Shown: positions 1 through 26,024 of the stretch, one piece after another
Numbering within the stretch: position 1 is the stretch's first letter
Layout: each line of letters opens with the position of its first letter
Assembly (NCBI RefSeq): GCF_003284725.1
Contig: NZ_PGTO01000015.1
Span: forward strand, 1 to 64,000
Direction of reading: 5' to 3'
DNA length: 64,000 nucleotides
DNA from: Paramagnetospirillum kuznetsovii
Lineage (GTDB): Bacteria > Pseudomonadota > Alphaproteobacteria > Rhodospirillales > Magnetospirillaceae
Made by a program: the position numbers and the translations under genes
The notes under the pieces: generated by a model
What the model was told of the DNA's origin: nothing
Seen by the model: the letters and a program-made list of their open reading frames with translations, nothing else
The model's database searches: none

Positions 1-380
1 CCGAAATCGAAGCCCCTCCGGGGCTCCGAGCCCGGCCCCATTGCTCAACCCGCGCCAGACGGCGTAACTTTAGTCGGGACTCTACTTCAGACTGGAGGAG
101 GATTCCCACGGCAGGTCACTGAATACTCCCCTGCGCCATAGCCCTCCCAAGCCCGAAGACGCGAGCGCCTCCCACTAATGACCTGGTTGGGCCGGAAGCG
201 GAAGGGCAGTTGTCCCACAAGGAAATAGTGTAAGCGGGCGCTGCCAACACGTATGGCTTCGGCGGGATTTGACCCAATCCGCACGTCCAGACAACCACAG
301 CGCAAACGCGCGAGGCCGTTGTTGCCGCAAAATCACTTTAGCATTACCATGCATTCTAATTCAGGTTCTTTGAGCTTAAA
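1..380. other. gene-free left edge
   Basis: No convincing coding region is seen here; the short open frames on the minus strand have no recognisable motif. Positions 11-25 form a small hairpin (AGCCCC/GGGGCT, 3-nt loop) that could end a gene lying to the left of the window. The last 60 bases are AT-rich and probably hold the promoter of the kinase gene starting at 381, but no clear -35/-10 pair is visible. Confidence 0.4.
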
Positions 381-1481
381 ATGGTTATGAGAAGCGAGCG
401 TCCAGTCGTTCTCATCGTCGACGACGTTGCCGAGAACCTCCAAGTTCTTGGCGAGTTATTGCAGCCATCATATTTGGTTAAGGTGGCGACGTCTGGCGAG
501 CGTGCGTTAAAAATCGCCTTAGCCTATCCACAACCCGACCTCATTCTGCTCGATGTGATGATGCCGGTTATGGATGGCTATGAGTGCCTTCGGCGGCTCA
601 GGGAAAATCCCGAGACGCGAAAGATCCCAGTGATTTTCGTGACCGCGCTGGATAGCACGGAGGATGAGCGTAAAGGGCTGGACTTGGGCGCAGTGGACTA
701 CATCACGAAGCCGATCCGTCCGGCCATCGTCGAAGCGCGGGTCCGTAATCATTTGGATATGAAGGCAACGCGCGATTGGCTGTATGACCAAAATGTCGTT
801 CTTGAAGCGGAATTGAGTCGTCTTCTGGAAATACTCGCGCACCACTTGCAAGAGCCGGTTCGGCGTCAGTTCACATTTGCGCAATTGCTACAGCGGTCAC
901 TGCCGAAGCCTCTGAATGAGGCCGCTGAAATGTCCCTGGCACAGATAATGGACGGGGCTGTACGGCTGCGGACCATGCTTCATGACGTCGTGCTGTATCT
1001 CGCGGCCTGCCAGGCTCCAGATCCCTCCGCGCTCTGTGATGCGGAGAATGCCCTGAATATCGCCATCAGACAGGTTGGTCACCGACTAGAAGATGCCGGG
1101 GGCAAGATCACTCGAGCTGAAATGCCGTCCGTTTGGCTGAACTCTGACCAACTGACTGCGATTTTCAGGGCGCTTATCACCAATTCCATCGATTACCGAG
1201 ATCCGGAGCGCGACCTCCACATTACCATCATGGCAAATCTCGATGGATCCGATGCTGTCTTTTCGGTTGCCGACAACGGCATAGGAATACCATGTGAATT
1301 CCGCGATCGAGTATTCTGGTTGTTTGAACGGCTTCATGCTGATTTTAACAGGCCCGGAACGGGCATCGGCCTTGCCCTAGTAAAGAAAATTGTCGAAGCC
1401 GCAAGGGGCCGGGTCTGGATTGAAGATAGTGATGAGAGAGGGGTGAAAATATGCTTTTCACTGCCTCGCAGAACCGAATAG
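381..1481 (+). CDS. response regulator-histidine kinase (REC-HisKA-HATPase)
   Basis: A soluble 366-aa protein with an N-terminal receiver domain (about residues 8-125; phosphoacceptor D58 in LLDVMMP, K110 in ITKP) and a C-terminal histidine kinase. The H-box reads AHHLQEPVR (H154), matching the HxxxEPxR type common in bacteriophytochrome-like kinases. The ATPase domain shows a variant N-box (ITNSIDYRD, about 258-266), DNGIGIP and GTGIGLALVKK. It has no membrane segment, so its input probably comes through the receiver. The receiver is strongly similar to that of the next gene downstream, suggesting duplication. ATG 387 is an alternative start. The gene is visibly less GC-rich than the lig region. 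Family assignment is firm; the partner and signal are unknown. Confidence 0.9.
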   Translation: MVMRSERPVVLIVDDVAENLQVLGELLQPSYLVKVATSGERALKIALAYPQPDLILLDVMMPVMDGYECLRRLRENPETRKIPVIFVTALDSTEDERKGLDLGAVDYITKPIRPAIVEARVRNHLDMKATRDWLYDQNVVLEAELSRLLEILAHHLQEPVRRQFTFAQLLQRSLPKPLNEAAEMSLAQIMDGAVRLRTMLHDVVLYLAACQAPDPSALCDAENALNIAIRQVGHRLEDAGGKITRAEMPSVWLNSDQLTAIFRALITNSIDYRDPERDLHITIMANLDGSDAVFSVADNGIGIPCEFRDRVFWLFERLHADFNRPGTGIGLALVKKIVEAARGRVWIEDSDERGVKICFSLPRRTE

Positions 1482-1544
1482 ACTAAGTCGAAAGTTTATG
1501 GTTAGGCGACTTGCCATGTGCATGGCTATGACAAGGATCCACCT

Positions 1545-2696
1545 ATGGACCAGGACTCGGGCCCGCATCCGCAGACAAGCGTCCTGATCGTTGACGACAC
1601 CCCACAGAATCTGACCATCTTGGGGGAGCTTCTCCAGCCGTTGTACCAAGTCCGCGTCGCCAATTCGGGCGAGCGAGCTTTAAGGATAGTCGGCTCAACT
1701 CCTCGCCCAGACATCATTTTATTGGATGTCATGATGCCAGGCATGGACGGGTACGCGGTCCTTGAGCAGCTCCGTTCGGATGCCAAGACTCATGACATTC
1801 CCGTGATCTTCATCACCGCCATGAATGCGACCGAGGATGAGGAGCGCGGCTTTGCCCTGGGGGCCGTCGATTACATCACCAAACCGATTGTTCCCGCGAT
1901 CGTGCTGGCACGGGTTCGCACCCATCTTGAGCTCAAGCGCTCGCGCGACCGACTGGCCAGTCAGAATGACTGGTTAGAGCAAGAGGTCGCGCGACGCATG
2001 GGCGAAAATCTGCTCATCCAGGACCTCAGTGTCCGCGCCCTAGCATGTCTTGCAGAGGCCCGAGATAACGAGACCGGCCATCACATCATTCGGACGCAGG
2101 CCTATGTCGATCTTCTGGCCCGGCGGCTTTCCGATCACCCCCGCTTTCGCCAGGCTCTGGCCGGAACACGCCTCGGCATGGTGGTTAAGGCTGCGCCGCT
2201 GCACGACATCGGCAAGGTTGGCATTCCCGACGCGATTCTGCTCAAGCCCGGGCGGCTGACGCCCGACGAATTCGAGGTGATGAAGACGCATCCCGCGATC
2301 GGCGCCGAAGCCATTGGCCGGGCCATGGATCAGGCGCTGGCGCAGGCCGATAACAAGACGGCGGCCCAAGCCGGTGAAGCCTTCTCATTCCTCAAAGTCG
2401 CGCATGAGATTTCCATCAGCCATCATGAGAAATGGGATGGCAGCGGCTATCCTAACGGCCTGAGCGGCGATGCCATTCCGGTCTCGGCGCGATTGATGGC
2501 TCTGGCCGACGTCTTCGACGCCCTGATTTGTCGGCGGGTCTATAAGTTGGCTATGAGCCTGGAGGACGCCACCGCGATCATAGCCGAGGGACGTGGCCGG
2601 CATTTCGATCCCGACGTGGTCGACGCTTTCATGTTGCGCCGCGATGACTTTGTTGAAATCGCTCGCCGCCACGCGGATCCCGAGCAGGGGGAGTAA
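1545..2696 (+). CDS. response regulator with HD-GYP c-di-GMP phosphodiesterase domain
   Basis: A receiver domain (residues 11-128, D61 in LLDVMMP, K113) is followed by a short helical linker and an HD-GYP domain (about 155-375). The HD pair is H220-D221 (LHDIGKVGIPD) and the signature HHEKWDGSGYP is at 293-303. HD-GYP proteins of this type hydrolyse cyclic di-GMP under control of receiver phosphorylation. ATG 1545 is preferred because AAGGA lies 7 bases upstream; a GTG at 1518 would add nine residues. The gene lies 63 bp after the REC-kinase gene, whose receiver is a close paralogue, so the kinase is a plausible partner (inference). Catalytic motifs look intact. Confidence 0.92.
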   Translation: MDQDSGPHPQTSVLIVDDTPQNLTILGELLQPLYQVRVANSGERALRIVGSTPRPDIILLDVMMPGMDGYAVLEQLRSDAKTHDIPVIFITAMNATEDEERGFALGAVDYITKPIVPAIVLARVRTHLELKRSRDRLASQNDWLEQEVARRMGENLLIQDLSVRALACLAEARDNETGHHIIRTQAYVDLLARRLSDHPRFRQALAGTRLGMVVKAAPLHDIGKVGIPDAILLKPGRLTPDEFEVMKTHPAIGAEAIGRAMDQALAQADNKTAAQAGEAFSFLKVAHEISISHHEKWDGSGYPNGLSGDAIPVSARLMALADVFDALICRRVYKLAMSLEDATAIIAEGRGRHFDPDVVDAFMLRRDDFVEIARRHADPEQGE

Positions 2697-2701
2697 AGGC
2701 G

Positions 2702-3364
2702 ATGACGATCACTGTCCGCATGGCCATCATCCTGTTTGTGGCGACAGCCGTCCTCGGCCCTGTCCGCGTCCATGCCGATGCTACCGGCGCGGCTCCGGCC
2801 GAGGCGGCAAAGTTCAAGGAGATCACCGCCACCAAGGAGACCCTGGAGCAGTTGCGCCGGGGAGGCTGGGCGCTTTACATGCGCCATGGCCGCACAGACA
2901 ACACCAAGCCGGATCGATATCCATCTGTTGATCTCAACGACTGCTCCACGCAACGACCGCTGACCGAGGATGGGCTCAAAATGGCGACCCAGGTCGGCGA
3001 AGAAGTTCGAAAGGCCCGCATTCCCATCGGAGAAATCCGCATCAGCCCGCTATGCCGGGTCAAGGACACGGTGGCGGCGGCTTTCCCAAACCAAGCGTTC
3101 ACACTCGACAATGAGTTGCTTTACACGGCGAATTTGACGGATGCCGAAAAGCAGCCAATCATCGCCAATACCCGCCGCCTTCTTTCGGCGCCGGTCGCCA
3201 ATGGAGTGAATCGGCTCCTGATCGCCCATGCGCCGAACCTGATGGACCTGATCGGTTATTTCCCCAAGGAAGGAACCCTGGTGGTGTTCCGTCCCAAGGG
3301 CAATGGCGAATTCGATTACATCGGCAGCATTCCGCCGTCTCTGTGGCCTAACCTGCAACAATAG
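2702..3364 (+). CDS. exported histidine phosphatase-family protein
   Basis: A 220-aa protein with an N-terminal hydrophobic segment typical of a Sec signal peptide (residues about 5-24, ending near VHA). The histidine phosphatase (phosphoglycerate mutase-like) fold is indicated by YMRHGRTD (catalytic RHG at about 60), the [10 protein letters not shown] segment and the second histidine in [10 protein letters not shown]. The family dephosphorylates small metabolites or proteins through a phosphohistidine intermediate. It starts 5 bp after the HD-GYP gene and its 3' end lies just upstream of the large kinase, so it is probably co-transcribed with signalling genes. Its predicted periplasmic location makes a direct SixA-like role on the cytoplasmic Hpt domain unlikely. 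The substrate is unknown. Confidence 0.82.
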
Positions 3365-3380
3365 CCATTTGGGTGACAGC

Positions 3381-6300
3381 ATGACTTTCCGTCCAGCCCG
3401 GATGTCGCCCTATCTGGTGGTGATTCTTGCGCCGGTTATTGTGGTTACGGTCTTGGCTGGAGCCCTGAATCTTCTCTCCTTTCATAGCCTTAGAGAAAGC
3501 CACAGGATGGTCAGCATCCTGCAAGGCCGGGAATTGGAGCGGGTTGCTTCGGCCACGCATATCAATGAAGAGGTTGCCAGCATCCAGCGCCTGGTCGGAT
3601 CGACGCTGGAAATGGCGAGTGACGGAAAGCTTGACGAGGCTACGACCTATCGCGTCCATAGCGAGGTGGTCAATCGCTTGGCCGAACTGGAGAAATTACT
3701 TCCAAATCTGCGGCTTGACGTCGGATTGCTGAATGAAGCCGAAGACGCCAGGATCGATTTTGACGCCTACCGAAAGTTCATCATCCAGGCGACAGACCTC
3801 GCTGCCGTCGATCCTCCGGGGGCCATGAAGTTCGCCTATCAGGCCGCCAACAGCTATCTCGCGCTGTCCGAGCACACCCATGCCATCGCGCGGGGCGTCG
3901 CCGAGGCGGCGGCTCGTCAGGGAGAGGCGCAGTCAGCCAGCTTTGAGGGGCAGGCGGCGCGCATCATGGTGAATGGGGGAATCCTGATTGGGGCGCTGCT
4001 GATTCTTTGGGTTCTGGTAGGAAGCTGGATGGCGCGGCGTGTATCCAGCCTGAGTTCTGCACTTCACGATCTGGCGCAAGGCGATGTCGCCTCTGCCTCC
4101 TTGCCCGAAGTTCAAGGGATCAGCGCGAACCGCCACAGCATATTGCGGGACATGGCCCAAGCCATCCTTACGTTTCGGGATGCTCTGGTGTCGCAGGAAA
4201 AGTCGCAGGCCGAACTCCGCAAGCTTTCCCTGGTTGTCGAGCAAAGCCCGAATCCAGTCGTGATCGCAGACCTCAATGGCAAGATCGAATACGTGAATGA
4301 CGCCTTCATCCGAAACTCGGGTTACAGCCGGGAAGAGGTGATTGGCCGCAATCCCCGCATCCTCAAATCAAAGAGGACGCCAAATTCGACCTACAGAGCC
4401 ATGTGGGACGCATTGACGAGGGGGGAAACTTGGTCAGGGGAATTTATCAATCTTACCCGAGACGGGCGGGAACGGACCGAGATAGCAACCATCGTTCCCC
4501 TTCGTCAGTCCGATGGGCGCGTCAGTCACTATGTCGGAATCAAGGAGGACGTAACTGAGAAGAAGAAACAAGAGGGCACTTTAAGAAAGCTTTTTATGGC
4601 GGTTGAACAAAGCCCAGAAAGCATTGTTATTACGGATCTTGAGCCAAAGATCGAATACGTTAATGGCGCTTTTGTCCGCAACACGGGTTTCAGCCGCGAT
4701 GAGGTGATAGGTAGTAACCCTCGTGTTCTTCAGTCTGGCCTAACTCCTCCAGAAACATTCAAGGATATGTGGGCGAAGTTGAGCCAAGGTGAGTCTTGGC
4801 ACGGCGAACTTGTTAATCGCCGCAAGGACGGCAGCGAATATGTCGAATTCGCCCATATCGCCCCGGTCCGTCAGGCGGATGGCGAAATCACCCATTACCT
4901 TGCAATCAAGGAAGACGTCACCGACAAAAAGCAGATGATGCGGGAGTTGGAGCTTCACAAGGATCACCTTGAGCTGATGGTCGCAGAGCGAACCAACGCT
5001 CTCTCCATTGCCAATCAGGAACAGAAGGCGATCTTTGACGCATCCGGGGTCGGCATTGCTCTCATCCGGGACCGGGTCGTTATTCGTTGCAATCGAAGTC
5101 TCGACAAAATGTTCGGCTACGGCCTCGGGGAGTTGGAGGGGCAACAGACCCGTGTTTGGTATTTGGATGATGACGACTGGGAGCGGCTTGGGCATGAGAT
5201 CTACGAGCAGGTTGGGCAAGGCGAAACCTACGAATGCGATCAGCAGTTTCGCAAGAAGGACGGCTCGCCGTTCTGGACCCGACTTGCGGTGCAGGCCCTC
5301 AATGCCGCCGCGCCCAACGAAGGCATTGTCGCCATTTTCGAGGACATAACCGATGAGCGCAAATCCGCCGAAGCGTTGCGGTTGGCCTTTGCCGAACAGC
5401 AGGCAATCCTGGACTCGGCAACCTCCGGCATCGTCCTGATTAAAAATCGGATCCTGGAGCGCTGCAATCGAAAGCTGCACGAGATCTTCGGCTGGCCCGA
5501 TGGCGAGATGGTCGGGAAGCCCAAGCGGATCTGGTACACCGACGAGGACAGTTGGATCGGCGGCGGCGGCGAGGCCTACGAGGAAATTTGGCAGGGCCAG
5601 ACCCATCGCCGCGAGCAGCAATTGCTGCGCAAGGACGGCAGCCTATTTTGGGCGCGCTTGACAGCCCATGCCGTTGATGCCCGAGACCCGACCCAGGGAT
5701 CCGTCTGGGTCATCGACGACATTACTCAAGAACATGCACTTATGGAGGAAATGCAGAGAGCGCGCATGCTGGCCGAGGATGCGGCTCGGGCGAAATCAGA
5801 CTTCCTTGCAAACATGAGTCACGAAATACGCACGCCCATGAACGCGATCATTGGGCTCACCCATCTGCTGCAACGCGATATTGCTGACAAAACGCAAAGA
5901 ACAAGGCTGGATAAGGTATCCACGGCGGCTCGCCATCTGCTCAATATCATCAACGATATTCTTGACCTCTCTAAAATCGAAGCCGGGAAGCTCCAACTCG
6001 AAAATACCGATTTCGAGATCGAGCATATGATCGAGACCGTATGCACTCTTGTCCATGATAAGGCAGAAGCCAAAGGGCTGGAACTCGTGGTCTCCATGCA
6101 TGCCCTTCCGGCAAATCTTCATGGCGACGGCCTGCGGATTGGACAGGTTCTACTCAATTTTGCCAGCAACGCCGTTAAGTTCACGGAATCGGGAAGCATT
6201 GCGCTTCGAGGCTCTGTAGTAAGCCGCGATGACAATGGCCTCGTGGCCAGATTTGAGGTTTCCGATACCGGTATCGGCCTTACGACCGAGCAGCAAGCGC

Positions 6301-8018
6301 GTTTGTTTCAGGCATTTGAGCAAGCCGACTCATCGACTTCCCGGAAGTATGGAGGTACTGGTCTCGGTCTTGCGATCTCCAAGCGTTTGACCGAGATGAT
6401 GGGGGGGCGAATCGGCGTAGACAGCGAATTTGGCCAAGGAAGCTCCTTCTGGATCGAAGTTCCCTTATCATTTCCCCTGGGTGGTGGGAATTTTCCATCC
6501 AAGCGAGTAGAGGCGAGCGGCCTGCGGGCTCTTGTGGTTGATGATCTCAGTGATGCCCTAGAGGCCCATGTCGGCATGCTGGAAATGCTTGGTCTGCAGG
6601 TTTCGGCTGTTGCTGATGGCGTTTCCGCTCTCGCCGCTGTGGAAGAAGCCGACGCCTCCAAAAAGCCATTCGACATTCTTCTGATCGATTGGCAGATGCC
6701 TGGGATGGATGGGCTTGAATTGGGGCGGCGATTGTTCTTGCTGCCCATCTCGCGTCAGCCTGCAAGGATGCTGGTCACTGCCTATGGCGATAGCGTCTCC
6801 GCCGATGTGCTGGCCGAGACCGGGTATCACAATATGTTGCTGAAGCCATTGACGCCGTCCCGGCTTTTCGATGGCTTGCAGGACACGCTTTCCGGCAAGC
6901 ATACGATCATGGGCGGGCTCGCCGCGGGAGAAGCCGAATCCGTCCTTCTGCATCGCCGCGGCGGCCGTGTTCTGCTTGCAGAGGACAATCTGGTGAACCA
7001 GGAGGTCGCTGTCGAACTTCTTTGTGCCGTCGGCCTTGATGTCGATGTTGCGGAAGATGGCCAGGTCGCACTGGATAAGGCAGCCCAAGGCCAATATGAC
7101 GTCATCTTGATGGATATGCAGATGCCGAACATGGATGGATTGGCTTCGACACGCGCGATTCGAAAGCTTCCGAACCACGTGAAAACGCCCATCTTGGCTA
7201 TGACGGCAAATGCTTTTGATGAAGACCGCAATGCCTGTCTCGACGCGGGCATGAACGATCACATTGCGAAGCCGGTGGACCCTGAGGCTCTTTACCTCGC
7301 ATTGCTGAAATGGCTTCCGGCGACGGCCGACCGCAAAGACGGATTTCGCCCGTCGTCTTCCCGCGACACCAAGGCTGACGACGTGGATTACGGCCTTGCC
7401 CGCGACCGGCTGTCTTCGATCGACGGCCTTGACGTCGCCGCAGGCCTCAAAGCGGCCAATGGGCGTTTGGACCTTTATCTCCGGCTCTTGGCGAAGTTCA
7501 TTGAAAATCAGGATGGCAATCATCTGATTCAGGCCCTCTCCTCGGGGGATATTCATGCGGCGCATAGGATTGCCCATACCCTGAAGGGAATGTCGGCGAC
7601 CCTGGGAATTGAAGGTCTCCGGAGGATCGCCGCTGAGATTGAAGCTGCTCTCAAGAATGCCTCGGGCGACGCGCCCGCTGACATCGCTGACAAGGCGCGG
7701 CTGCTCGAAGTTGAATTCCAGGCCATGCGCGACCGGCTGCGGCCCGTGGTGGCGGCCCCGCAAGCCACCGAAAGTCGCGAGCGGCCAGTTGGCGGCGACG
7801 TGGACAAGGCCGAGGCCAGTACTCTCTTGCGGCGACTTGACGAACTTCTGTCCATGGACGACATGTCGGCGGGAAATCTCTATCGCGAAAATGAAGCCGT
7901 TTTCCGCGCGGCGATTGGCTGTCAATTCGCAGCGATCGCTCAGAACATCGAAGACTTCGCCTTTGAGGAGGCCTTGGCTCTGCTCAGAAGTGCCGTTCGG
8001 GGCGGATCCGAGCAATGA
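3381..8018 (+). CDS. hybrid histidine kinase: 2 TM, 4 PAS, HisKA-HATPase, 2 REC, Hpt
   Basis: A 1545-aa membrane sensor. TM segments are at about 10-32 and 196-217, enclosing a roughly 160-residue periplasmic helical domain. Four PAS/PAC units follow (about 280-395, 400-515, 545-660, 670-785). PAS1/PAS2 are near copies, as are PAS3/PAS4. The HisKA H-box [10 protein letters not shown] gives H814; the ATPase motifs SDTGIGL and [10 protein letters not shown] are near 961 and 991. Receivers have D1103 (LLIDWQMP) and D1245 (LMDMQMP), and the Hpt domain has H1399 (AHTLKGMS). This is a complete phosphorelay in one chain. ATG 3381 was chosen because it directly precedes the first TM and has GGGTGA upstream; longer in-frame starts overlap the phosphatase gene. 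Confidence 0.93.
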
Positions 8019-8084
8019 ATGTTCAGCCTGGGTAGGCGTCCGATTTTGGAGACGGGGACGTCGATTCCCCGGCAAGGAGGGGGC

Positions 8085-8975
8085 ATGACCTGCATTCTCG
8101 TCGTGGATGACGACCCAATCTGTCTAGAACTACTCTCCGAGACCTTGATCGGCGCCGGTTACAGCGTTGACCTTGCTGTCGACGGCGAGGACGCTTGGGA
8201 CAAATTGAACTCCTACAAGCATGACCTGGTTCTGCTGGACCGGGTCATGCCGCGTCTGGATGGGCTTGGCCTGCTTCGCCGCATGAAGGGCGTCGCCGCC
8301 TTATCCGGAATTCCGGTGATCATCCAGACCTCCGCCTCGTCGCAGGACGAAATACGGGAAGGCTTGGAGGCCGGAGCCCACTACTATCTGTGCAAGCCCG
8401 TTTATCCGGACCTGCTTTGCCCGCTGGTGGCCGGAATTGTCGCAGACATCGCCGAACGCAAGAGCCTGAGGGACTGCAAGGCCAACGTCGCCGTGGCCTT
8501 GTCGCTTATGACAAGCGGCGATTTCATGTTTCGAACGCTGGATGATGTTCGCTCATTGGCCGCCGTTCTCGCCGAGCTCTGCGACAGGCCCGACGATGTC
8601 GGCATGGGGCTACTGGAATTGATGATCAACGCGGTCGAACACGGCAATCTCGGCATCAGCTATACCGAGAAATCGGAATTGCGGAAGACATGGCGTTGGG
8701 AACAGGAGATAAGCCGCCGTCTCGGCGTCGCGCCGTGGTCAAGCCGCGTGGCGCGCGTCCGCGCGTCCCACGATTGCGATGACGTTGTTTTCGTGATTTC
8801 GGACGAGGGTGTTGGGTTCGATCCCGGACGCTTCATGCAAATGGAGCCCGCGCGCGCCTTCGACCTGCATGGTCGCGGCATCGCCATGGCGAACGCCGCC
8901 AGCTTCTCCCGCTTGGAATATCAGGGACGAGGCAACGTCGTCATGGCGAGGGCTCCCGCCCGGCGCGATTGTTAA
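8085..8975 (+). CDS. response regulator with RsbW-like HATPase output domain
   Basis: A 296-aa protein with a receiver domain (residues 2-120; D52 in LLDRVMP, K in CKPVYP) and a C-terminal GHKL ATPase domain (about 150-290). The ATPase domain shows an N-box-like ELMINAVEHGNLGI and DEGVGFD, with a GRGIAMA glycine loop. It lacks a HisKA dimerisation/His box, so it resembles anti-sigma-kinase-type outputs rather than a classical sensor kinase. ATG 8085 has a near-perfect AAGGAGG at 8074-8080; an upstream in-frame start at 8019 would be adjacent to the hybrid kinase stop. Its position directly after the Hpt-bearing hybrid kinase suggests it is the terminal receiver of that relay (inference). Confidence 0.9.
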   Translation: MTCILVVDDDPICLELLSETLIGAGYSVDLAVDGEDAWDKLNSYKHDLVLLDRVMPRLDGLGLLRRMKGVAALSGIPVIIQTSASSQDEIREGLEAGAHYYLCKPVYPDLLCPLVAGIVADIAERKSLRDCKANVAVALSLMTSGDFMFRTLDDVRSLAAVLAELCDRPDDVGMGLLELMINAVEHGNLGISYTEKSELRKTWRWEQEISRRLGVAPWSSRVARVRASHDCDDVVFVISDEGVGFDPGRFMQMEPARAFDLHGRGIAMANAASFSRLEYQGRGNVVMARAPARRDC

Positions 8976-9363
8976 GAGCTTTCTATCACCATTAAGAGAC
9001 ACGATCAGGCCAGGGGAATATTCAGCCAGGATGTTTGTGATGAGGAACCTGGCGAACGGACAACAATGGTGAAGGCAGTTCCCATCCTCGTCGAGGCCGA
9101 GAGGCTTGGTCGTCGTGCAACGGGTGCTGACTATGTCCGGTCATGGCACATCAGCGACATTCCCGGCAACCACCTCAATGGCCGCTTTCGAGCGCAGCAT
9201 TCGGGCTGCTGAATGACCACCATGGGCGCAAAGCCGACTCTAATAGGTGTCGGCCCATTGAAGCTCTGCTGCGCAGATGGGCGTGGCCGTCGAGAGTGAT
9301 GTCTAGATGTTTGATCCCAGGCTTTGATGGTGCATTTTCTTCGCAGGAATGGAAGGAAGCACT
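8976..9363. other. non-coding stretch with degenerate dispersed repeat
   Basis: No supported gene is seen. A 48-codon open frame (9066-9212) runs into a dispersed repeat (9142-9233) that recurs near 12.2 kb, and is probably an accidental translation of repeat DNA. The final bases (AAGGAAG at about 9353) form a ribosome-binding site for the transposase fragment starting at 9364. Confidence 0.45.
9142..9233 (+). repeat. dispersed ~92-bp repeat, copy 1
   Basis: This segment aligns without gaps to 12211-12302 in the same orientation. The first 20 bases are identical, and the blocks CCGCTTTCGAGCG and GGGCGCAAAGC are shared. Both copies lie outside coding sequence and bracket the transposase remnants and the chemoreceptor gene. 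The nature of the repeat is unknown. Confidence 0.7.
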
Positions 9364-9444
9364 ATGGGCCAGATTCTACACGGCTGCGCCACCACGACAG
9401 AGGCAATCCGTCGAGCAATACAAAATAGTCAAGAGAGCCTGAGA
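9364..9444 (+). pseudogene. IS481-type transposase, N-terminal fragment only
   Basis: The ATG at 9364 has an upstream AAGGAAG. The frame encodes a start of MGQILHGC followed by ATTTEAIRRAIQNSQESLR, the highly conserved N-terminus of a group of IS481-family transposases with an HTH head. Similarity ends after about 27 residues, where the sequence passes abruptly into the interior of an unrelated IS256-type transposase. It is a truncated remnant and cannot encode an active enzyme. Assignment rests on remembered family sequence, not on a search. Confidence 0.6.
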
Positions 9445-10301
9445 TCGATCTGGTCAAGGCCATGGGCATGAGCGGCATTTCCAAGAGCCAGGTCTCGCGC
9501 CTGTGCGCCGAGATCGACGGCAAGATCGCCACCTTCCTGGAGCGCCCCATCGAGGGCGACTGGCCCTATCTCTGGCTCGACGCCACCTATGTCAAGGTGC
9601 GCCAGGACGGCCGCATCGTCAGCGTGGCGGTGATCATCGCCGTCGGCGCCAATGCCGCCGGGCGGCGCGAGGTGCTGGGCATGGCTATCGGTCCCTCGGA
9701 GGCCGAGACCTTCTGGACAGACTTCCTGCGCAAGCTGGCGCGGCGCGGCCTGCGCGGGGTCAAGCTGGTGGTCTCCGACGCCCATGAAGGCATCAAGGCC
9801 GCCGTGTCCAAGGTGCTGTGCGCCACTTGGCAGCGTTGCCGCGTCCACTTCATGCGCAACGTCCTGGCCCATGCCGGCAAGCAGGGGCGACGGGTGGTCT
9901 CCGCCTTCATCGGAACCGCTTTCGCCCAGGACACCGCCACCGCCGCCCACGCCCAATGGCGACAGGTGGCTGATCAGCTGCGACCCAGGGCCCACAAACT
10001 GGCCGAGTTGCTGGACGATGCCGAGATGGATGTCCTGGCCTACATGGACTTCCCACCCGCCCATCGCACCAAGCTGCACTCCACCAACCCCATCGAGCGC
10101 CTCAACGGCGAGATCAAGCGCAGGACCGAGGTGGTCGGCATCTTCCCCAACGAGAACGCCATCACCCGCCTGATCGGCGCCATCCTCTTGGAGCAGAACG
10201 ACGAATGGGCCGTCCAGCGAGCCCGCTACATGACCCTGGAATCCGTCGCCACCTTGGGCGATGATCCCCTGGTGAGCCTGCCGCCCGTCGCGGCAGCCTG
10301 A
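9441..10301 (+). pseudogene. IS256 (mutator) family transposase, 5'-truncated
   Basis: About 286 residues match the C-terminal two thirds of IS256-family transposases, which are normally about 400 aa. The catalytic triad regions are present: LDATYVKVR (first D), VVSDAHEGIKAA (second D) and NPIERLNGEIKRR (E). The N-terminal DNA-binding third is missing; the in-frame sequence starts at EIDLVKAMGMSGISKSQ, directly joined to an IS481-type fragment. ATG 9462 could restart translation, but such a product would lack the DNA-binding region. High GC compared with its neighbours suggests origin in another replicon or genome region. Probably inactive. Confidence 0.85.
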
Positions 10302-10380
10302 TCAAACCGGCCAAGCCCGCCGGAGATCAAACGGCGACCGTGCTGTTACACCAATCCATGGGACACGATCCCAAGGCTGA

Positions 10381-12066
10381 TTAGCCATTGCGGACCTTGG
10401 TGACGAAATCCCCGACCAATCGACGGAGCGACGCGGACTCCGAAGAGAGTTTCTGCGCAGCACAAAGAACCATGGCTGAGGACTGTCCGGTTTCGCTGGC
10501 AGCCGATGTGACTCCGCCAATGTTGCAGGAAACCTCTTGGGTGCCCCGGGCAGCCTCTTCCACGTTGCGGGCGATCTCCTGCGTTGCTGCTGATTGCTGC
10601 TCCACGGCAGATGCAATCGCCGATGAAATTTCATCAATCCGGCCGATGGTTGAATTGACGCTTTGAATTGCCTCGACGGCACGACCCGTCTCGGTCTGAA
10701 CGGTATTGATCTGCTGTGCAATCTCATCGGTCGCCCGTGCAGTCTGATTGGCAAGGCTCTTGACCTCGTTGGCTACCACGGCGAAACCCTTGCCAGCCTC
10801 ACCCGCACGAGCAGCCTCAATAGTCGCGTTTAAGGCGAGTAGGTTGGTTTGGCTGGCAATGTCGTTGATGAGTTTGACAACTTCACCAATTCGTCCGACC
10901 GCTTCAGACAGACCATGGACGATTGCATCCGCGTGAGTCGCCTCATCAACCGCATTGCGTGAAACGCGTGCCGCATCGCTCACTTGCCTACCAATCTCCG
11001 AAACCGAGGCCGATAGCTCCTCGGCGGCAGCGGCAACGGTCTGAACATTGGAACTTGCTTGTTCTGACGCGGCTGCGACAGCATTGGCCTGGGCTGAAAC
11101 CTGCCCGGATAGAGAGGACATGGTTTGAGCTGTCAGTTCCATATCGGAAGATGCGCCAGCGACATTGTCCACCACCATGGCGACACTGGACTCGAACTCC
11201 CCGGCAAGGCGCTGCATTTCCGAACGAAGCTGCTGATCAGCCCGCAGCTTGGCGTCGGCTGCCTCTTTCTCGACGCGAGATTTGTCTATGGCATTGCGTT
11301 TAAAAACCTCGACCGAACGGGCAATCTGTCCAGCCTCATCTTTTCGCTCAGTACCAAACACGGTGATTGAAACATCGCCTTGGGCAAGGCTCTGCATGAC
11401 CGTGGTGATCTGGTGAATGGGCACGGAAACCGAGCGAGAAATCAGGACCGACAACACCACGCCGAGAATGATGCCAAGGCCCACGAGGCTAAAGCTGACG
11501 GTCCGATCAGCTACATAGTTAGCCTCCCCCTCCAAGAAGGAAGCGTTGGCTTCTTCTCGCTGGTAGTCCATCAGTTTGCGGAGGGGGGTGGCGGCCTTGC
11601 GAAACTGCTCAGTTCCCGGTCCCAGCAAATCGCTACGCGCACCTTCCAGGTCACCGGCAGAGATGCGGTCCCAATTGGCAGTCAGGTAGCCGCGATATGA
11701 CTTGAACCCAGCCTCAGCGTCCCGAGCCAGGGCCGCCTCTTGAGCAGTCATCTTGGAAGATGTATAGCTCGCCCACGCCTTGTCCAGATCACTCATCTGC
11801 TTTTTGAACTCGTCCCTCAGCGCCGCCACCTTGGCAGAGTCGCGTTCCACCGTGGCAGTGACCGTCCGTATGCGGATGCGGTGAAGGGCGTCGACGACCC
11901 CGGAAAGGTCGCTAAGCGCCGTGGTGGTATCCTGGGCGACCCCTTTGAAGCTGTCGTGCATTCGGCTCAACCCGTGAACGCCGAACCCACTGGTGGCGAT
12001 CAAGATCGTCAGCATAATGGCGGTCAGGGCGGTCAGTCGCCGAGCAATGTTCCAGTGGAAAGCCAT
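10381..12066 (-). CDS. methyl-accepting chemotaxis protein
   Basis: A 561-aa chemoreceptor with TM1 at about residues 10-30, a periplasmic four-helix-bundle-like ligand domain (about 31-185), TM2 at about 188-211, HAMP (to about 265) and a cytoplasmic signalling domain. The conserved hairpin tip [20 protein letters not shown] is clear. It would bind CheA/CheW and control flagellar rotation. ATG 12066 is preferred because GGGGGA lies just upstream and TM1 follows closely; an upstream start at 12105 adds 13 residues. It is isolated from other chemotaxis genes and carried on the putative integrated element. The ligand is unknown. Confidence 0.93.
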
Positions 12067-12463
12067 CACATCCCCCAGGGAAGCCACATTGAAAATGTAG
12101 GGCAATTTTATCTAGAATAATTCCTATCACTAATGTAGCTGATGTAAATGGGGGCGGGAAGAGGTGAGGCTCACGGCTACCCACCGTGCGGATGGGTTTG
12201 AAGGGCTGAACATGGCACATCAGCGACATTTCCAGCAGTCACCCCAATGACCGCTTTCGAGCGGTGCGTGTGAGCTATTGGATAACCGCATGGGGCGCAA
12301 AGCGGTCGGAGCCGTGTGTACGGGACCTGCGGGAAGATAAAGGCAGTTCAACCCATCCGAACAAGGGCCGTGCAGAAAACAACATGTCATCAACTTGATC
12401 AACTGGCCCAAAACAATTCAAATCGCCATACTGATTGGATTGAAACAGCGCGTGAATTTCATC
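12067..12463. other. intergenic region with repeat copy 2
   Basis: Starts with the AT-rich promoter region of the minus-strand chemoreceptor (about 12080-12150). It continues through the second copy of the dispersed repeat (12211-12302) and a stretch with no supported gene up to the HTH protein. Short open frames here have no recognisable motif. Confidence 0.4.
12211..12302 (+). repeat. dispersed ~92-bp repeat, copy 2
   Basis: Gapless match to 9142-9233 in direct orientation, identical over the first 20 bases and degenerate further on. Together the copies flank about 3 kb containing the insertion-sequence remnants and the chemoreceptor. Confidence 0.7.
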
Positions 12464-12934
12464 ATGACAACCCGGAAAATTTTTTCTCAACTTTCACTCG
12501 GGCCAACCCTTTCAAACCATCTGATCGCGGTCCAGTTCACCGAGAACCCTGCCGCAAGCTTTGGTACCGTTACGGCCATTGGGGCCGTGGTCCAGATTCC
12601 TCGCACAACGTCGGCGGCATCCACCTATATGACCGTGCGCCAGGCAGCTGACGAGCTCCAGGTCCAGCGCAAAACCGTTTACGAATGGATCAAGTCTGGC
12701 CTTGTGCGGGCTGGAATCTTGCCCGGCGGAACCGAATACCGGATCCACCGCAACGACTGGCTCATCTTCCTGGATCGCTTGTTTACCCAGGGTGTCCGGC
12801 CGTCAGTTCGGCAGCCTTCGAATCCTCCTTGCGCCATCATCGAGGAAGGTCGTGGTTCCTCCCCTCGCCCGCAGCTCAAGCCCGATTTCTTCACCCTGGG
12901 GGCTGATGGCCGCAAGGTTGGAAAGGGCCTCTAG
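12464..12934 (+). CDS. HTH DNA-binding protein, excisionase/AlpA-like
   Basis: The recognisable part is a MerR/excisionase-type helix-turn-helix: YMTVRQAADELQVQRKTVYEWIKSG followed by a short wing and YRIHRNDWLIFLDRLF (about residues 56-110 of the 156-aa form). Such small proteins act as recombination directionality factors or regulators for nearby integrases. No good ribosome-binding site is seen, so the start is uncertain: TTG 12395, ATG 12464 and ATG 12629 are all in frame. It lies 89 bp upstream of the integrase in the same direction, with GTCC-type repeats between them. The tail after residue 110 is proline- and arginine-rich with no recognised domain. Confidence 0.65.
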   Translation: MTTRKIFSQLSLGPTLSNHLIAVQFTENPAASFGTVTAIGAVVQIPRTTSAASTYMTVRQAADELQVQRKTVYEWIKSGLVRAGILPGGTEYRIHRNDWLIFLDRLFTQGVRPSVRQPSNPPCAIIEEGRGSSPRPQLKPDFFTLGADGRKVGKGL

Positions 12935-12941
12935 CAGATTC

Positions 12942-12978
12942 CAGGACATTTTTTGTCCTGAAATCTGTCCTGAAATCT
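12942..12978 (+). promoter_or_regulatory. inverted and tandem GTCCTGAAATCT repeats before the integrase
   Basis: CAGGACA (12942-12948) and TGTCCTG (12954-12960) form an inverted repeat with a five-T loop. GTCCTGAAATCT occurs twice in perfect tandem at 12955-12966 and 12967-12978. The site sits between the HTH stop and the integrase start, so it could be an operator, integrase arm-type sites or a terminator. Related GTCC motifs occur after the integrase. Confidence 0.55.
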
Positions 12979-13023
12979 GATTCATGCTACAATGGCGCCT
13001 TCACTTCTTGATGGAGGTCCGCC

Positions 13024-14301
13024 ATGGGACGAGCATCGAAGCCACCGCGGCTCGTACTACGGGGAGCCAGCTGGTACATCGTCGATGAAGGCCAGAAGAT
13101 CGCCTGCGGCACCCGGGACGAAGGCGAGGCTCGGCGTGCGCTGGCTCAGTACGAAGCTGGCAAGGCAACAGCCGCCCATCGCGTAAAAGCTGGCATTCCG
13201 TCGGCAAGCGCAGATGTGCTGATCAAGCACATCCTTGAGGGATATGAGGTCAGCCGCCTTAAGGAATTGAAGAAGAAGAAAAATCGCGCGGTTTATGGCG
13301 AGACCCGAATCGCCCTTCTGAAGCAAGGGATAGACGAAGCCGAAGCGCATACGCAGGCCAACTTGGCCTCCAAACGGGCTGAAGCCGAAATTACCACCAT
13401 CGGCAATGATCGCTTCGTCATGAAGCATTTGAAGGAATATTTTGGCCCATTGCGGCCTAGCCACATCAGCCAATCAGTGGTCGAGGAATACGCCATTCGC
13501 CGTAGGGACGCCGGCATCTCCCGGAGATCCACCGGCCAAGTTATCCGCAGAATTGCTGACGCAACTATTGAAAAAGAATTGGTGATCCTGCGCGCTGCCT
13601 TGCGCTGGGCCGAAAAAGATGACCGCAACCGTTGGCTTGGAGGTGTTGAAGCCCCGGCCTTCACCATGCCTGTGTCTGGTGCCCGGGCCCGGATCCGGTG
13701 GTTGACCAAAACCGAAGCGGCCACGCTGATCGCCAGTTGCCACCTGCCCCATATCCGGTTGTTTTTTCGTATTGCTTTGGCGACTGGCGCCAGGAAGGAA
13801 GCAATCGAACAACTGCGCTGGGATCAGATCGATTTCGATCGGAACCTCATCGACTTCGGCCAAGTCGCAGCTGACAACAATAAGAAGCGCCCGCTGATTC
13901 AGATGACACCGGAACTGCGACGTGAATTGTGGAATGCCAAGCAGGTTGCCTGTTCAAACTATGTCATCGAATTCCGTGGGCGGCAGGCTGGAAACGTGAA
14001 GAAATCCGTGCGCGCCGCCATCGAAAAGGCTGGCCTGAAGAGCGTTGATCCCTCCGAAGACGTGGTTGGCCACATTATGAAGCACACCTTCGTCTCGTGG
14101 ATGGCCCAGAGCGGCAAGGCATTCGAAGATATCGCTTTGATCCTCAATACGTCCGCCGCAACGCTGAGACGTACTTATGCCCATGCCGACCTGACTGCGG
14201 CGGCCGACGTCGCCGATGCAGTGGCCTTGGATGAGCATATTCAGCGGATCGACTGGCAGCCCACTACCGCCCTCCTCCTGTCCAAGGAAGCGGCCGCCTG
14301 A
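13024..14301 (+). CDS. tyrosine-type site-specific integrase
   Basis: A 425-aa phage-type integrase. The catalytic domain begins at about residue 225; RI-ALATGARKEAIEQLRW supplies the first arginine (R257), and the C-terminal block HIMKHTFVSWMAQSGK to RRTYAHADL supplies the nucleophile Y385. Two conserved positions differ: the HxxR motif reads HIMK (H350, K353), and the usual LGH reads LNT (374-376). The preceding region (about 70-190) resembles a SAM-like core-binding domain. It ends 144 bp before a tRNA-Val 3' fragment, the probable attachment site, and follows an excisionase-like HTH gene. It probably integrated the left-hand segment; current activity is uncertain because of the substitutions. 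Confidence 0.9.
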   Translation: MGRASKPPRLVLRGASWYIVDEGQKIACGTRDEGEARRALAQYEAGKATAAHRVKAGIPSASADVLIKHILEGYEVSRLKELKKKKNRAVYGETRIALLKQGIDEAEAHTQANLASKRAEAEITTIGNDRFVMKHLKEYFGPLRPSHISQSVVEEYAIRRRDAGISRRSTGQVIRRIADATIEKELVILRAALRWAEKDDRNRWLGGVEAPAFTMPVSGARARIRWLTKTEAATLIASCHLPHIRLFFRIALATGARKEAIEQLRWDQIDFDRNLIDFGQVAADNNKKRPLIQMTPELRRELWNAKQVACSNYVIEFRGRQAGNVKKSVRAAIEKAGLKSVDPSEDVVGHIMKHTFVSWMAQSGKAFEDIALILNTSAATLRRTYAHADLTAAADVADAVALDEHIQRIDWQPTTALLLSKEAAA

Positions 14302-14311
14302 CATCACCCTT

Positions 14312-14367
14312 GTCCGGAAATCCAGGAATATCCGACTGATTGAATCAGGACAATTGTCCCGAAACCA
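14312..14367 (+). promoter_or_regulatory. GTCC-type motifs and palindrome after the integrase
   Basis: GTCCGGAAATCC (14312-14323) and GTCCCGAAACCA (14356-14367) resemble the GTCCTGAAATCT units before the integrase. GGACAATTGTCC (14348-14359) is a perfect 12-bp palindrome. The arrangement between integrase and tRNA-derived att site fits recombinase or excisionase binding sites; this is inference from position and repetition. Confidence 0.45.
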
Positions 14368-14445
14368 GGTAAACACACGGCTCTAAACTGCACTCTCCGG
14401 TCATCGCAAAAAAACGTAAGGGATTGAAGTTACAATCTATCGCCG

Positions 14446-14492
14446 CCTTCACACGGGAGGGGTCGCAAGTTCAATCCTTGCATCGCCCACCA
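14446..14492 (+). other. attachment site: 3' fragment of tRNA-Val(CAC)
   Basis: The sequence holds the 3' half of a tRNA: loop TTCACAC (anticodon CAC at 14450-14452), 3' anticodon stem GGGAG, variable loop, perfect T-arm GCAAG-TTCAATC-CTTGC (14465-14481), acceptor strand ATCGCCC, discriminator A and CCA (14490-14492). The 5' half is absent, since the upstream bases cannot pair with GGGAG or ATCGCCC. It lies just after a tyrosine integrase, the standard footprint of integration into a tRNA gene. The intact tRNA and the other att copy should be outside the window. Confidence 0.82.
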
Positions 14493-14562
14493 TCTACCTC
14501 TTGATTTTCAGAAATCTCAAGACGCGATGACACGCCGGTTGGTGCTGCGGCCTTTGGCCTTG

Positions 14563-14647: not shown

Positions 14648-15568
14648 ATGAATCTCAAACAGCTCGAATACTTCGTCCGGGTCGCCGAACTGGGCAGTTT
14701 CAGCAAGGCGGCGATGATCATCAACATCGCCCAGCCCGCGCTGTCGCGCCAAGTGCGCCTGCTGGAAACCGACTTGAACGCCACTCTGCTGACCCGCACC
14801 GGGCGCGGCGTGGTGCTGACCGAGGTGGGACAGCGCCTGTTCGATCACAGCATCGGTATCCTGCAATTGGTGGCCCGCGCCACCGAGGACATCGAGTCCA
14901 CCCGCGATGAACCGGCCGGACGCATCGTCATCGGCCTGCCGCCCAGTATCGGACGCCGCCTGACCCTGCCGCTGGTGGAGGGTTTCCGCCGCACCTTGCC
15001 CAAGGCGCGCCTGGCCATCGTCGAAGGGCTATCCACCCATCTCACCGAATGGATCGCCACCGGGCGGGTCGATATGGGCCTTGTCCACAATCCCGAGCCC
15101 AATCCCGCCATCGAAGCAACCCCCGTGCTGGACGAGGCGCTGGGCCTGATCAGCCCCGCCGCGCCGGGCGAAGCCCTGCCGCTGTCGCTGGCGGATCTGG
15201 TCGGCTTCCCGCTGATCCTGCCCGAGCGCACCCATTCCATGCGCAAGCTGCTGGAGACGCAGGCGGCCTTCGCCGACCTCAAGCTGAACGTGGTGTTGGA
15301 AGTCTCCGCCGTGCCGTCCATTCTCGATCTCGTCACGGCCGGCTATGGCCATGCCGTCCTGACCGAGACCGCTTTGGCCGCCTCGGGGCGGCCGAACGAC
15401 TTCCGCCTGCGCCCGCTGGTCAAACCCAGCCTGACCAGCACCTTGTTCCTGGCCCAATCGGCGCAAAAGCCCATCACCCCCCTGGGCCGCCGGGCCATGC
15501 GCCTGCTGCGCGATCTGGTGGCCGCGGCCGGTGAAGGCGCGCGTGGCGGCCATAGCAAATTGCGATAG
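14648..15568 (+). CDS. LysR-family regulator, likely of the protocatechuate 4,5-cleavage operon
   Basis: A 306-aa LysR-type protein. The N-terminal winged HTH is at residues 1-60 (MNLKQLEYFVRVAELGSFSK, then PALSRQVRLLE). The substrate-binding domain follows from about residue 90 (GRIVIGLPPSIG, ending near 295). It lies 78 bp upstream of galD in the same direction, whereas many LysR genes are divergent from their targets. By analogy with LigR in sphingomonads it probably activates the downstream operon in response to an aromatic pathway intermediate (inference). GGTGGAAAG just upstream of the ATG serves as ribosome-binding site. Confidence 0.88.
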   Translation: MNLKQLEYFVRVAELGSFSKAAMIINIAQPALSRQVRLLETDLNATLLTRTGRGVVLTEVGQRLFDHSIGILQLVARATEDIESTRDEPAGRIVIGLPPSIGRRLTLPLVEGFRRTLPKARLAIVEGLSTHLTEWIATGRVDMGLVHNPEPNPAIEATPVLDEALGLISPAAPGEALPLSLADLVGFPLILPERTHSMRKLLETQAAFADLKLNVVLEVSAVPSILDLVTAGYGHAVLTETALAASGRPNDFRLRPLVKPSLTSTLFLAQSAQKPITPLGRRAMRLLRDLVAAAGEGARGGHSKLR

Positions 15569-15571
15569 CTG

Positions 15572-15618
15572 ATAGTGGCGGCGGGGGGCTAACTCGGACC
15601 CGATGAATTTGCCACTAT
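15572..15618. promoter_or_regulatory. inverted repeat in the galD leader
   Basis: ATAGTGGC (15572-15579) and GCCACTAT (15611-15618) are perfect inverted copies separated by 31 bp, between the LysR stop and the preferred galD start. It could be an activator-binding site or an mRNA hairpin. Its overlap with an alternative galD ATG (15617) argues for the later GTG start. Confidence 0.4.
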
Positions 15619-15646
15619 GGCAGCGTCGAATGCTGGGAGGCCGACA

Positions 15647-16738
15647 GTGCAAACCCCGATCCCCTGCCTGTTCATGCGCGGCGGCACTTCGCGAGGGCCG
15701 TTCTTCCTGGAGTCCGACCTGCCCGCCGACACCGCGCTGCGCGACCGCGTGCTGCTGGCGGTCATGGGCTCGCCCGACCGGCGCCAGATCGACGGAATGG
15801 GCGGCGCCCATCCGCTGACCAGCAAGGTGGGCATCGTGCGCAAGAGTGCTGCGCCGGGGGTCGATCTCGATTTCCTGTTCGCCCAATTGCAGCCCGACAA
15901 GGATACGGTCGACACCACCCCCAACTGCGGCAACATGCTGGCCGCCGTGGTGCCCTTCGCCCTGGAACGCGGCATCGTCGCGGCGCAAGGCGAGACCACG
16001 ACGCTCCGCGTGCTGACGCTGAACACCGACATGCAGTGCGACATCACGGTGCGCACCCCCGGCGGCCGCGTCGCCTATGAGGGAGACGCCAGGATCGACG
16101 GCGTGCCCGGCACGTCTTCGCCCATCACCATCAATTTTCTCGATACCGCCGGGTCCGTCTGTTCCGGCCTGCTGCCCACCGGCAATGTCCGCGACGACAT
16201 GGACGGGCTGGCGGTCACCTGTATCGACAACGGCATGCCCATGGTCCTGTTCCGCGCCGCCGACATGGGCCGCACCGGCTCCGAGAGCGTGGAACAGATG
16301 AACGCCGACACCGCGCTGAAGACCAGGATCGAGGCGCTGCGCCTCAAGGCGGGCCATCGGATGGGCCTGGGCGACGTGACGGACAAGAACTACCCCAAGA
16401 TGTGCCTGATCGCGCCGCCGCTGGCAGGCGGCGCCATCGGCACCCGTTGCTTCATCCCCCATGTCTGCCACGATTCCATCGGCGTGCTGGCCGCCGTCAC
16501 GGTGGCGACCGCCTGCGCCCTGGACGGCTCGGTGGCCGACGGCATCGCCGTGATGCCGGAAGGCTTGGTCAAGACCGTCGCCGTCGAGCACCCCTCGGGC
16601 GAGTTCAGCGTCGAACTCGGCCTCGACCCCGCCAATCCGCAGGCCGTGACCCGCGCCGCCCTGCTGCGCACCGCCCGCCTGTTGATGCGCGGCGAGGTCA
16701 TGGTTCCCGCCTCCGTCTGGGAAGGACATCGCGCATGA
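15647..16738 (+). CDS. galD: 4-oxalomesaconate tautomerase
   Basis: A PrpF/AcnD-accessory fold protein that interconverts keto and enol 4-oxalomesaconate before hydration by LigJ (also called LigU in sphingomonads). Family signs are the N-terminal PCLFMRGGTSRGPFF, the GGAHPLTSKVGIV segment and TTPNCGNMLAAV. GTG 15647 is chosen since GGGAGG lies six bases upstream and the resulting start, MQTPIPCLFMRGG, fits GalD proteins at 363 aa; ATG 15617 adds ten residues. It is the first gene of the operon and overlaps ligJ by 4 bp (ATGA). No anomalies are seen. Confidence 0.9.
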   Translation: MQTPIPCLFMRGGTSRGPFFLESDLPADTALRDRVLLAVMGSPDRRQIDGMGGAHPLTSKVGIVRKSAAPGVDLDFLFAQLQPDKDTVDTTPNCGNMLAAVVPFALERGIVAAQGETTTLRVLTLNTDMQCDITVRTPGGRVAYEGDARIDGVPGTSSPITINFLDTAGSVCSGLLPTGNVRDDMDGLAVTCIDNGMPMVLFRAADMGRTGSESVEQMNADTALKTRIEALRLKAGHRMGLGDVTDKNYPKMCLIAPPLAGGAIGTRCFIPHVCHDSIGVLAAVTVATACALDGSVADGIAVMPEGLVKTVAVEHPSGEFSVELGLDPANPQAVTRAALLRTARLLMRGEVMVPASVWEGHRA

Positions 16739-17763: not shown

Positions 17764-17867
17764 CCGACGAGCCTAAAGCGAGGAGTTGCGGCCAAGGGCC
17801 GGCGCGCCACGTGGCGCGGGAGCCAAGGGTTTCGGAGAAACCCGCCCGGCGATTGAGGGACAAGAGA

Positions 17868-20384: not shown

Positions 20385-20385
20385 G

Positions 20386-20817: not shown

Positions 20818-22613
<1,796 letters not shown>

Positions 22614-22620
22614 GCCCGTC

Positions 22621-23610: not shown

Positions 23611-23632
23611 TTCGAACAACTGGAGGAGCGTC

Positions 23633-23989: not shown

Positions 23990-26024
<2,035 letters not shown>

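Follow-up and report, generated by a model that had tools for sequence, protein, structure and literature searches.

A Split tRNA-Val(CAC) Gene in Paramagnetospirillum kuznetsovii Very Probably Marks an Island That Supplies Its Own Complete Copy of the Gene

The tRNA-Val(CAC) Fragment and Its Surroundings

The window, meaning the whole stretch of 64,000 nucleotides analysed here, corresponds to C6:1-64000 in the genome of P. kuznetsovii (hereafter G000; 4.41 Mb in 69 contigs). Positions 14446-14492 matched nt 29-75 of a tRNA-Val(CAC) gene, starting with the segment CCTTCACACGGGAG and finishing with CCA (Table 1). The 47 bases were all identical (47/47) to the unsplit tRNA-Val(CAC) gene of the relative G005, a gene which was itself identical in eight of the nine unsplit relatives compared. 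No whole tRNA was detected in the window by ARAGORN, and a search of segment 14200-14700 with Rfam returned chance matches alone (best E 0.3).

The ORF 13024-14301, which stops 144 bp ahead of the fragment, was assigned to the tyrosine integrases, and the product of the ORF 12395-12934 to the excisionase-like helix-turn-helix proteins. Both assignments were made with Pfam, NCBIfam and PHROGs; phrog_66, matched by the helix-turn-helix protein, is a family of excisionases and transcriptional regulators. Measured in 2 kb steps, the G+C content was 0.55-0.61 until position 14000, compared to 0.607-0.690 from position 15001 on. The more AT-rich left side contained the transposase remnant and a set of signalling genes (four response-regulator, kinase or HD proteins, a histidine-phosphatase-like ORF and a methyl-accepting chemotaxis protein, MCP). 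The GC-rich right side contained catabolic genes coding for a 4-oxalomesaconate tautomerase, a CHA aldolase and class III extradiol dioxygenases. An earlier note, made from the sequence of the window, had described the fragment, the neighbouring integrase and these differences between the two sides, and had taken the fragment for the right border of an integrated element. All these points were borne out, the fragment fitting the integrase-side end (attR) of such an element.

Table 1. Features at the island end of the window and tRNA fragments of the more distant genome G179. Positions are those of the window unless a locus is given.
Feature	Position	Strand	Basis
Signalling block, likely island cargo: response regulators, hybrid kinases, HD-GYP	270..9152	+	Pfam
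IS256/Mutator-type transposase remnant, 5'-truncated	9462..10301	+	PF00872 Transposase_mut, positions 129-377 of 379
Methyl-accepting chemotaxis protein, likely island cargo	10381..12105	-	Pfam
Excisionase-like helix-turn-helix protein	12395..12934	+	TIGR01764 excise, 35 bits (cut-off 28.8); phrog_66
Arm-type-like motif TGTCCNGAAAT	12954..12964	+	Motif search; putative integrase binding
Arm-type-like motif TGTCCNGAAAT	12966..12976	+	Motif search; putative integrase binding
Tyrosine integrase, 425 aa	13024..14301	+	Pfam Phage_integrase 1.4e-10; phrog_1 integrase 5e-34
Arm-type-like motif, integrase-side arm of attP	14311..14321	+	Motif search; putative integrase binding
Palindrome GGACAATTGTCC, integrase-side arm of attP	14348..14359	.	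Word shared with G006 and G009
Putative attR, 3' part of split tRNA-Val(CAC) gene	14446..14492	+	47/47 to unsplit tRNA of G005
Attachment core CCTTCACACGGGAG, tRNA-Val nt 29-42, anticodon loop and stem	14446..14459	+	
tRNA trailer, island type, unlike host type of relatives	14493..14510	+	95% identity to C54; trailer comparison
tRNA-Thr(GGT) 3' fragments of G179	L141 8017-8068; L149; L150		

A Separate 5' Half and a Complete Gene on Contig C54

The earlier note had called for a search of the genome, to the left of the window, for an intact tRNA-Val(CAC) gene with the same last 47 bases. An intact gene of 75 bases was indeed found, on contig C54, but it agreed with the fragment at 45 of the 47 positions. 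The two differences, at nt 29 and nt 39, affected bases that pair together and amounted to the swap of a C-G to a G-C pair in the anticodon stem, which we take to be pair 30:40 in standard tRNA numbering. The likeness between the fragment and the intact copy ran 18 bp beyond the CCA into the trailer, until position 14510 (95% identity between window 14447-14510 and C54 26290-26227). A 33-base probe with up to three mismatches allowed matched the 4.4 Mb genome twice, in the window and at C54:26245-26277, while the reversed control gave no match; a single 3' half was thus found with this probe. Forty-six tRNA matches were present in G000, of which ARAGORN named 45. Three of the named ones were tRNA-Val genes (TAC, GAC and a single CAC), and the C54 copy was the sole tRNA-Val(CAC) among the 45.

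BLAST with the whole gene revealed a separate 5' half (nt 1-42) at C54:26476-26435, upstream of the intact gene and separated from it by a spacer of 115 bp. The last 14 bases of this 5' half were exactly the core with which the window fragment opens. Such an arrangement indicates that the split gene is composed of the C54 5' half and of the window 3' half, the intact C54 gene being an additional complete copy. The partner of the fragment appears to be the 5' half at C54:26476-26435 rather than, as in the usual model of tRNA integration, an intact gene regenerated by the integration. A single 5' half was seen in G000 (40 of 494 candidates scored), together with a single integrase of the family (5 of 5 candidates scored).

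Split and Unsplit tRNA-Val(CAC) Loci in Relatives

The tRNA-Val(CAC) loci of 12 relatives of the genus were fetched out of 16 searched (G002, G003 and G008 gave no match and G011 was not fetched), with 25 candidates scored in most genomes. Nine of the 12 possessed one unsplit gene, and no 5' half was present in the stretches fetched from them. The other three, G006, G009 and G015, showed a 5' half and a whole tRNA copy. The upstream flanks were homologous in 12 of the 13 loci, that of G000 included (the flank of G014 matched no other), and the loci therefore correspond to the same chromosomal site. Integrase matches with E <=1e-40 were obtained in five of 317 genomes of the order: G000, G006, G009, G146 and G179. 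The copies of G006 and G009, 91-94% identical to the integrase of the window, adjoined the same kind of att site. G146 belongs to another genus of the family; its integrase was 50% identical and showed the same target and the same split-and-replace layout.

The 5' half lay directly upstream of the whole copy in the five occupied loci (G000, G006, G009, G015 and G146), and in each of them the whole carried copy was identified as tRNA-Val(CAC) by ARAGORN. In G006, G009 and G146 the order was 5' half, spacer, whole replacement tRNA, island, integrase and 3' half. In G146 the whole layout lay on one contig: the 5' half ran from about 219920 down and was followed by 188 bp and by the whole copy, which was quite divergent (15 of 75 positions differed from G005). 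The G146 integrase (104482-103280) ended approximately 2.6 kb ahead of an inner 3' half at about 100718; no integrase was found beside the outer 3' half, at about 90458. The left end alone was seen in G015, whose best integrase match was 37%, and the genome searches found there neither a close integrase nor a separate 3' half.

The DNA bordering the islands of G006 and G009 could be aligned with unoccupied sites, a comparison that the earlier note had called for and that turned out in favour of an insertion. Over 5.9 kb, the right flank of the G006 attR shared 88% identity with the stretch that follows the unsplit G005 tRNA. For the right flank of the outer G009 attR, the identity to the stretch that follows the unsplit G010 tRNA was 93% over 1.8 kb, the match beginning 290 bp beyond the att site in G009 and 75 bp beyond the gene in G010. 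The tRNA was rebuilt at neither junction, the 5' half passing into island DNA and the 3' half following island DNA.

Attachment Core, Crossover and Putative Arm Sites

The 14 bp core CCTTCACACGGGAG had a single site with at most two mismatches on the + strand of the 64 kb window, and both junctions of the G006 island carried it unchanged. At core position 13, the 5' junction of G009 showed an A whereas its outer 3' half showed a T, as did the unsplit gene of its near relative G010. The same position was occupied in G146 by an A in the 5' junction and by a T in both 3' halves. The base difference between the junctions in these two relatives places the exchange 5' of core position 13, in the anticodon loop and its flanks, with the crossover lying within CCTTCACACGGG.

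The motif TGTCCNGAAAT, which was picked by eye after inspecting the sequences, is likely an arm-type site. All three of its sites in the window (12954, 12966 and 14311) lay at the island end, compared to 0.02 sites expected in the window from mononucleotide shuffles. Two sites were present in 40 kb of C54, one on each side of the whole tRNA copy, and nine of the 10 sites in 120 kb of G009 and the five sites in 105 kb of G006 were at island ends; there was none in the fetched stretches of G146 and G179. In G006 and in the outer island of G009, the att site likewise had the palindromic word GGACAATTGTCC beside it. The position of the putative arm motifs on both sides of the C54 tRNA copy suggests that, in the close family, the replacement tRNA gene sits inside the attP arm.

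Proposed Mechanism and Alternatives

We propose that the window fragment is the attR of an island that integrates into the anticodon arm of tRNA-Val(CAC), with no tRNA rebuilt and with a copy supplied by the island itself. The match between the unsplit sites of G005 and G010 and the outer flanks of the G006 and G009 islands argues for this reading, which we hold to be very probably correct. In this model, the tyrosine integrase would recombine at the anticodon arm, leaving the 5' half at attL and the 3' half at attR. The complete island-borne tRNA-Val(CAC), located about 115 bp inside attL, in the attP arm, would take over the function. On excision, the two halves, both matching the native gene exactly, would be joined again. 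In G000, attL would be on C54 (26476-26245) and attR on C6, in the window, the two contigs breaking inside the island. The island would in this way hold the tRNA gene hostage, as a deletion of its left end would cost the only tRNA-Val(CAC) found. The tRNA-Val(TAC) also present in G000 might read GUG.

The DNA to the right of the fragment requires an additional step. The view that it is the original neighbour of the insertion did not hold, as the trailer of the fragment is of island type and as, in G005, G009 and G010, the three complete relatives, more than 0.8 Mb separates tRNA-Val from the block formed by LysR and the protocatechuate genes. In these relatives, regions far from tRNA-Val were collinear with 14649-26032, which covers LysR and 11 kb of protocatechuate genes. 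The right flank of the window matched neither the host downstream DNA nor the island left ends, and the downstream region of G005 mapped to C54:162 kb and to other contigs of G000. Since the ancestral downstream flank is absent beside the window fragment, a later rearrangement or deletion at the right flank needs to be added. A synteny break was also observed at window positions 26032-26038, where the protocatechuate block stops, the next DNA lying elsewhere in the three complete relatives.

The distance between the LysR block and tRNA-Val could also be explained if the window end and the C54 locus were parts of separate islands or loci, with a stray attR brought next to LysR by rearrangement. 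The assembly does not link C54 to C6, and the blocks which the window has in common with the G006 island are in inverted orientation, two observations in keeping with this explanation. We nevertheless judge it unlikely, as the genome showed a single 3' half, a single integrase of the family and, among the 40 of 494 candidates scored, a single 5' half. Moreover, the window trailer is of the same island type as the leader that precedes the 5' half on C54, and C54 is AT-rich right to the contig end, with a G+C content of 0.41-0.62 per kilobase over the 26 kb from the tRNA to the end compared to 0.62-0.68 on the other side. By parsimony, the simplest reading is that C54 and C6 carry the two ends of one island.

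In a canonical tRNA island, the 3' part brought by attP regenerates an intact tRNA and one displaced 3' fragment is left at the far end. An intact tRNA-Val(CAC) and a 3' fragment with an adjoining integrase do exist in G000, and a situation of this kind was encountered in the more distant genome G179, where an integrase 43% identical lay beside one of three tRNA-Thr(GGT) 3' fragments; an intact copy of the gene was located elsewhere, and none of the candidates (10 of 10 scored; genome 81% complete) was a 5' half. The G179 island is more likely of the usual kind, made of an intact gene and a fragment, and the split-and-replace layout is therefore not extended to the whole integrase family. At the tRNA-Val loci themselves the canonical scheme seems very improbable: a 5' half precedes the intact gene in five of five occupied loci, it carries the host leader in G006 and G009, where 115 bp of island DNA come before the whole copy, and the two bases that set this copy apart from the fragment in G000 pair with one another. 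The proposal that tRNA pieces arose by tandem partial duplication or random copying, without integration, draws on the fact that tRNA fragments have other origins, e.g., CRISPR spacers (PMC9897764), but it can practically be set aside in view of the identical breakpoints in several species, the unsplit sites in relatives and the integrase and arm-like motifs at the ends.

Independently of the layout, G179 illustrates a switch of target in the integrase family, to tRNA-Thr(GGT), with an integrase 43% identical. The viral contigs yielded one weak integrase relative (26%), and the 108 phage records with an integrase match were each below 60% identity. The left att region matched 26 plasmid records, and the eight matches listed covered the tRNA gene alone; another plasmid search was dominated by the IS256 piece and was uninformative on the island.

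Island Extent and Cargo

The window starts at base 1 of C6, and C54 likewise ends inside island-like DNA, so that the island of G000, read as a single one, measures at least about 41 kb. The view that the whole of 1-14492 is element DNA, put forward in the earlier note, stood in part. This DNA is element-like and has counterparts in the G006 island, the contig ends of which matched window 270-632 (96%) and 6343-9150 (93%), but the signalling block recurred at other places in G006 and at a place in G009 that belongs to neither of its islands, and the complete block was present in G010, a genome with no integrase of this kind. Block 270-9150 therefore seems to be mobile in its own right and constitutes a weak proof of island content.

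The 8.9 kb signalling block (window 270-9152) had sharp ends, with TGACCCAATCC at the left one. Copies 93-98% identical, whole or partial, were located at G010 C1:3124454-3133349, at G009 C1:2416334-2423631 and on several G006 contigs. Matches were obtained in six of the 17 genomes of the genus (G000 included; two were about 70% alike) and there was no match at E 1e-100 in 11 of the 17. No transposase was found among the five scanned ORFs of the block, which is possibly a mobile signalling cassette.

The island genes on C54 encoded signalling proteins, hemerythrin proteins, an MCP, a transposase and an FtsH-like protease. The protease gene and the adjacent DNA were 90% identical to the left end of the second, 23 kb island of G009. 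This FtsH-like AAA/M41 protease belongs to a left-end module common to both islands, at L034:2221-4248 (G000 island) and L088:17161-19371 (23 kb G009 island). Close to the left end of the 75 kb island of G009 lay a further tyrosine recombinase, distinct from the integrase (L087:11753-12610). A STAND NTPase and OLD-like or AriA-like ATPases, which resemble anti-phage defence proteins, were encoded in both G009 islands: at L088:10872-13157 and L088:8811-10610, near the integrase end of the 75 kb island, and at L089:6191-8047 in the 23 kb island. The latter also carried genes for a FeoB ferrous iron transporter and an OprB porin (L089:12772-14886 and L089:11010-12407), a cargo of interest in a magnetotactic genus.

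No phage structural family and no conjugation family (relaxase, type IV secretion) was found among the proteins scanned, i.e., 17 of the 20 listed ORFs of the 23 kb G009 island, 20 of the 42 of the 75 kb island, 20 ORFs on C54 and nine to the left of the window fragment. Magnetochrome genes were present in the six genomes tested (6/6). The 11 matches of G000 were located on C21, C31, C33 and C35, none of them on C54 or C6, and there was no sign that the island is a magnetosome island.

Replacement Copies with and without the Core

An older layer of integration was suggested by the sequences flanking the split genes. In G000, an island-type leader separates the 5' half from the host promoter, as it also does in G015. 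The trailer of the window fragment is also of island type, differing from that of the G006 attR and of the outer attR of G009 and G146, and the inner 3' half of G009 has an island-type trailer too. The pairing of leaders with trailers is coarse and sorts types only, four of the nine unsplit genes scoring 1 against their own trailer and seven of the nine scoring 6 or less. From the island-type leader and trailer, it is most likely that the gene split in G000 had been left there by an earlier island as its replacement copy. For G009, it is likely that either one island entered the replacement tRNA gene of the other or the two travel as a composite.

The native unsplit genes showed an exact core in eight of nine cases, with one mismatch in G010. 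Among the whole island copies, those of G000 and G006 had two mismatches due to the same pair swap, which was also present in the G146 copy; the G015 copy had two mismatches of another kind, and that of G009 had none. The swap, which preserves the stem, breaks the 14 bp core in G000, G006 and G146. It may represent one shared event in G000 and G006. In the putative older split copies of G000 and G009, the core was intact in the remaining 3' halves, and the inner 3' half of G146 had one mismatch. The present G009 copy keeps the core yet is whole.

The C-G to G-C swap keeps the tRNA and spoils the core, and on this ground we propose that the island could be shielded from its own kind. The replacement tRNA would then also serve as a device for immunity and accretion, core-keeping copies regenerating an attB for the next island. 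The comparison of core losses concerns a small sample, and we would give this additional role slightly less than an even chance. If true, it implies that the chromosomal tRNA-Val(CAC) was handed from island to island like nested dolls and finally became island-owned.

Comparison with Known Systems

The open-access literature, surveyed through titles and the starts of abstracts with subscription papers outside the scope, contained among the papers listed no recognised report of such islands in this genus, nor of non-phage islands with whole replacement tRNAs.

The closest parallel is the tRNA-dependent lysogeny of actinobacteriophages such as Fionnbharth, in which the host tRNA is destroyed and a complete one is brought by the phage; the requirement for this tRNA was shown by mutation, and a Lactobacillus prophage was remarked on in the same paper (PMC10865867). 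Both systems use a tyrosine integrase and a core inside a host tRNA gene (10 bp there, 14 bp here), no tRNA is rebuilt, a whole tRNA of the same isotype is carried and putative arm-type sites surround the core. The Fionnbharth-type elements are temperate phages for which the need for the tRNA was demonstrated, whereas we are dealing with islands for which the need is deduced, and which had no phage structural genes among the proteins scanned. The islands also differ by the location of the replacement copy, inside the attP arm, and by their nested and tandem arrangement. A mechanism of temperate phages would thereby be extended to chromosomal islands of alphaproteobacteria, in two genera.

In the vTRX32-1-like phages of Rhizobium, a whole tRNA-Leu is carried without the 12 bp att motif, and the authors presume that it replaces the host tRNA and prevents super-integration (PMC8631192). 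The core-less replacement copies described here fit this idea of super-integration prevention. Those elements are phages using tRNA-Leu, whereas in the islands the core is spoiled by a compensating swap of an anticodon-stem pair, one integrase family includes copies with and without the core, and there are signs of later insertions into core-keeping copies. The islands offer a small natural set of replacement tRNAs, some keeping the att core and others lacking it, together with their outcomes, on which a control of repeated integration by the replacement tRNA is directly testable.

The islands recognised by Islander share with ours the integrase, the tRNA target, a crossover class centred on the anticodon, a 3' fragment at the far end and tandem arrays (PMC4383910). 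The Islander signature consists of one regenerated tRNA and one displaced fragment, as opposed to the two fragments and the separate whole copy observed here; regenerated genes with fragments are also described in PMC9897764, PMC8371274 and PMC3293823. Island finders searching for one intact gene plus one fragment would set the left end at the replacement tRNA and miss the 5' half.
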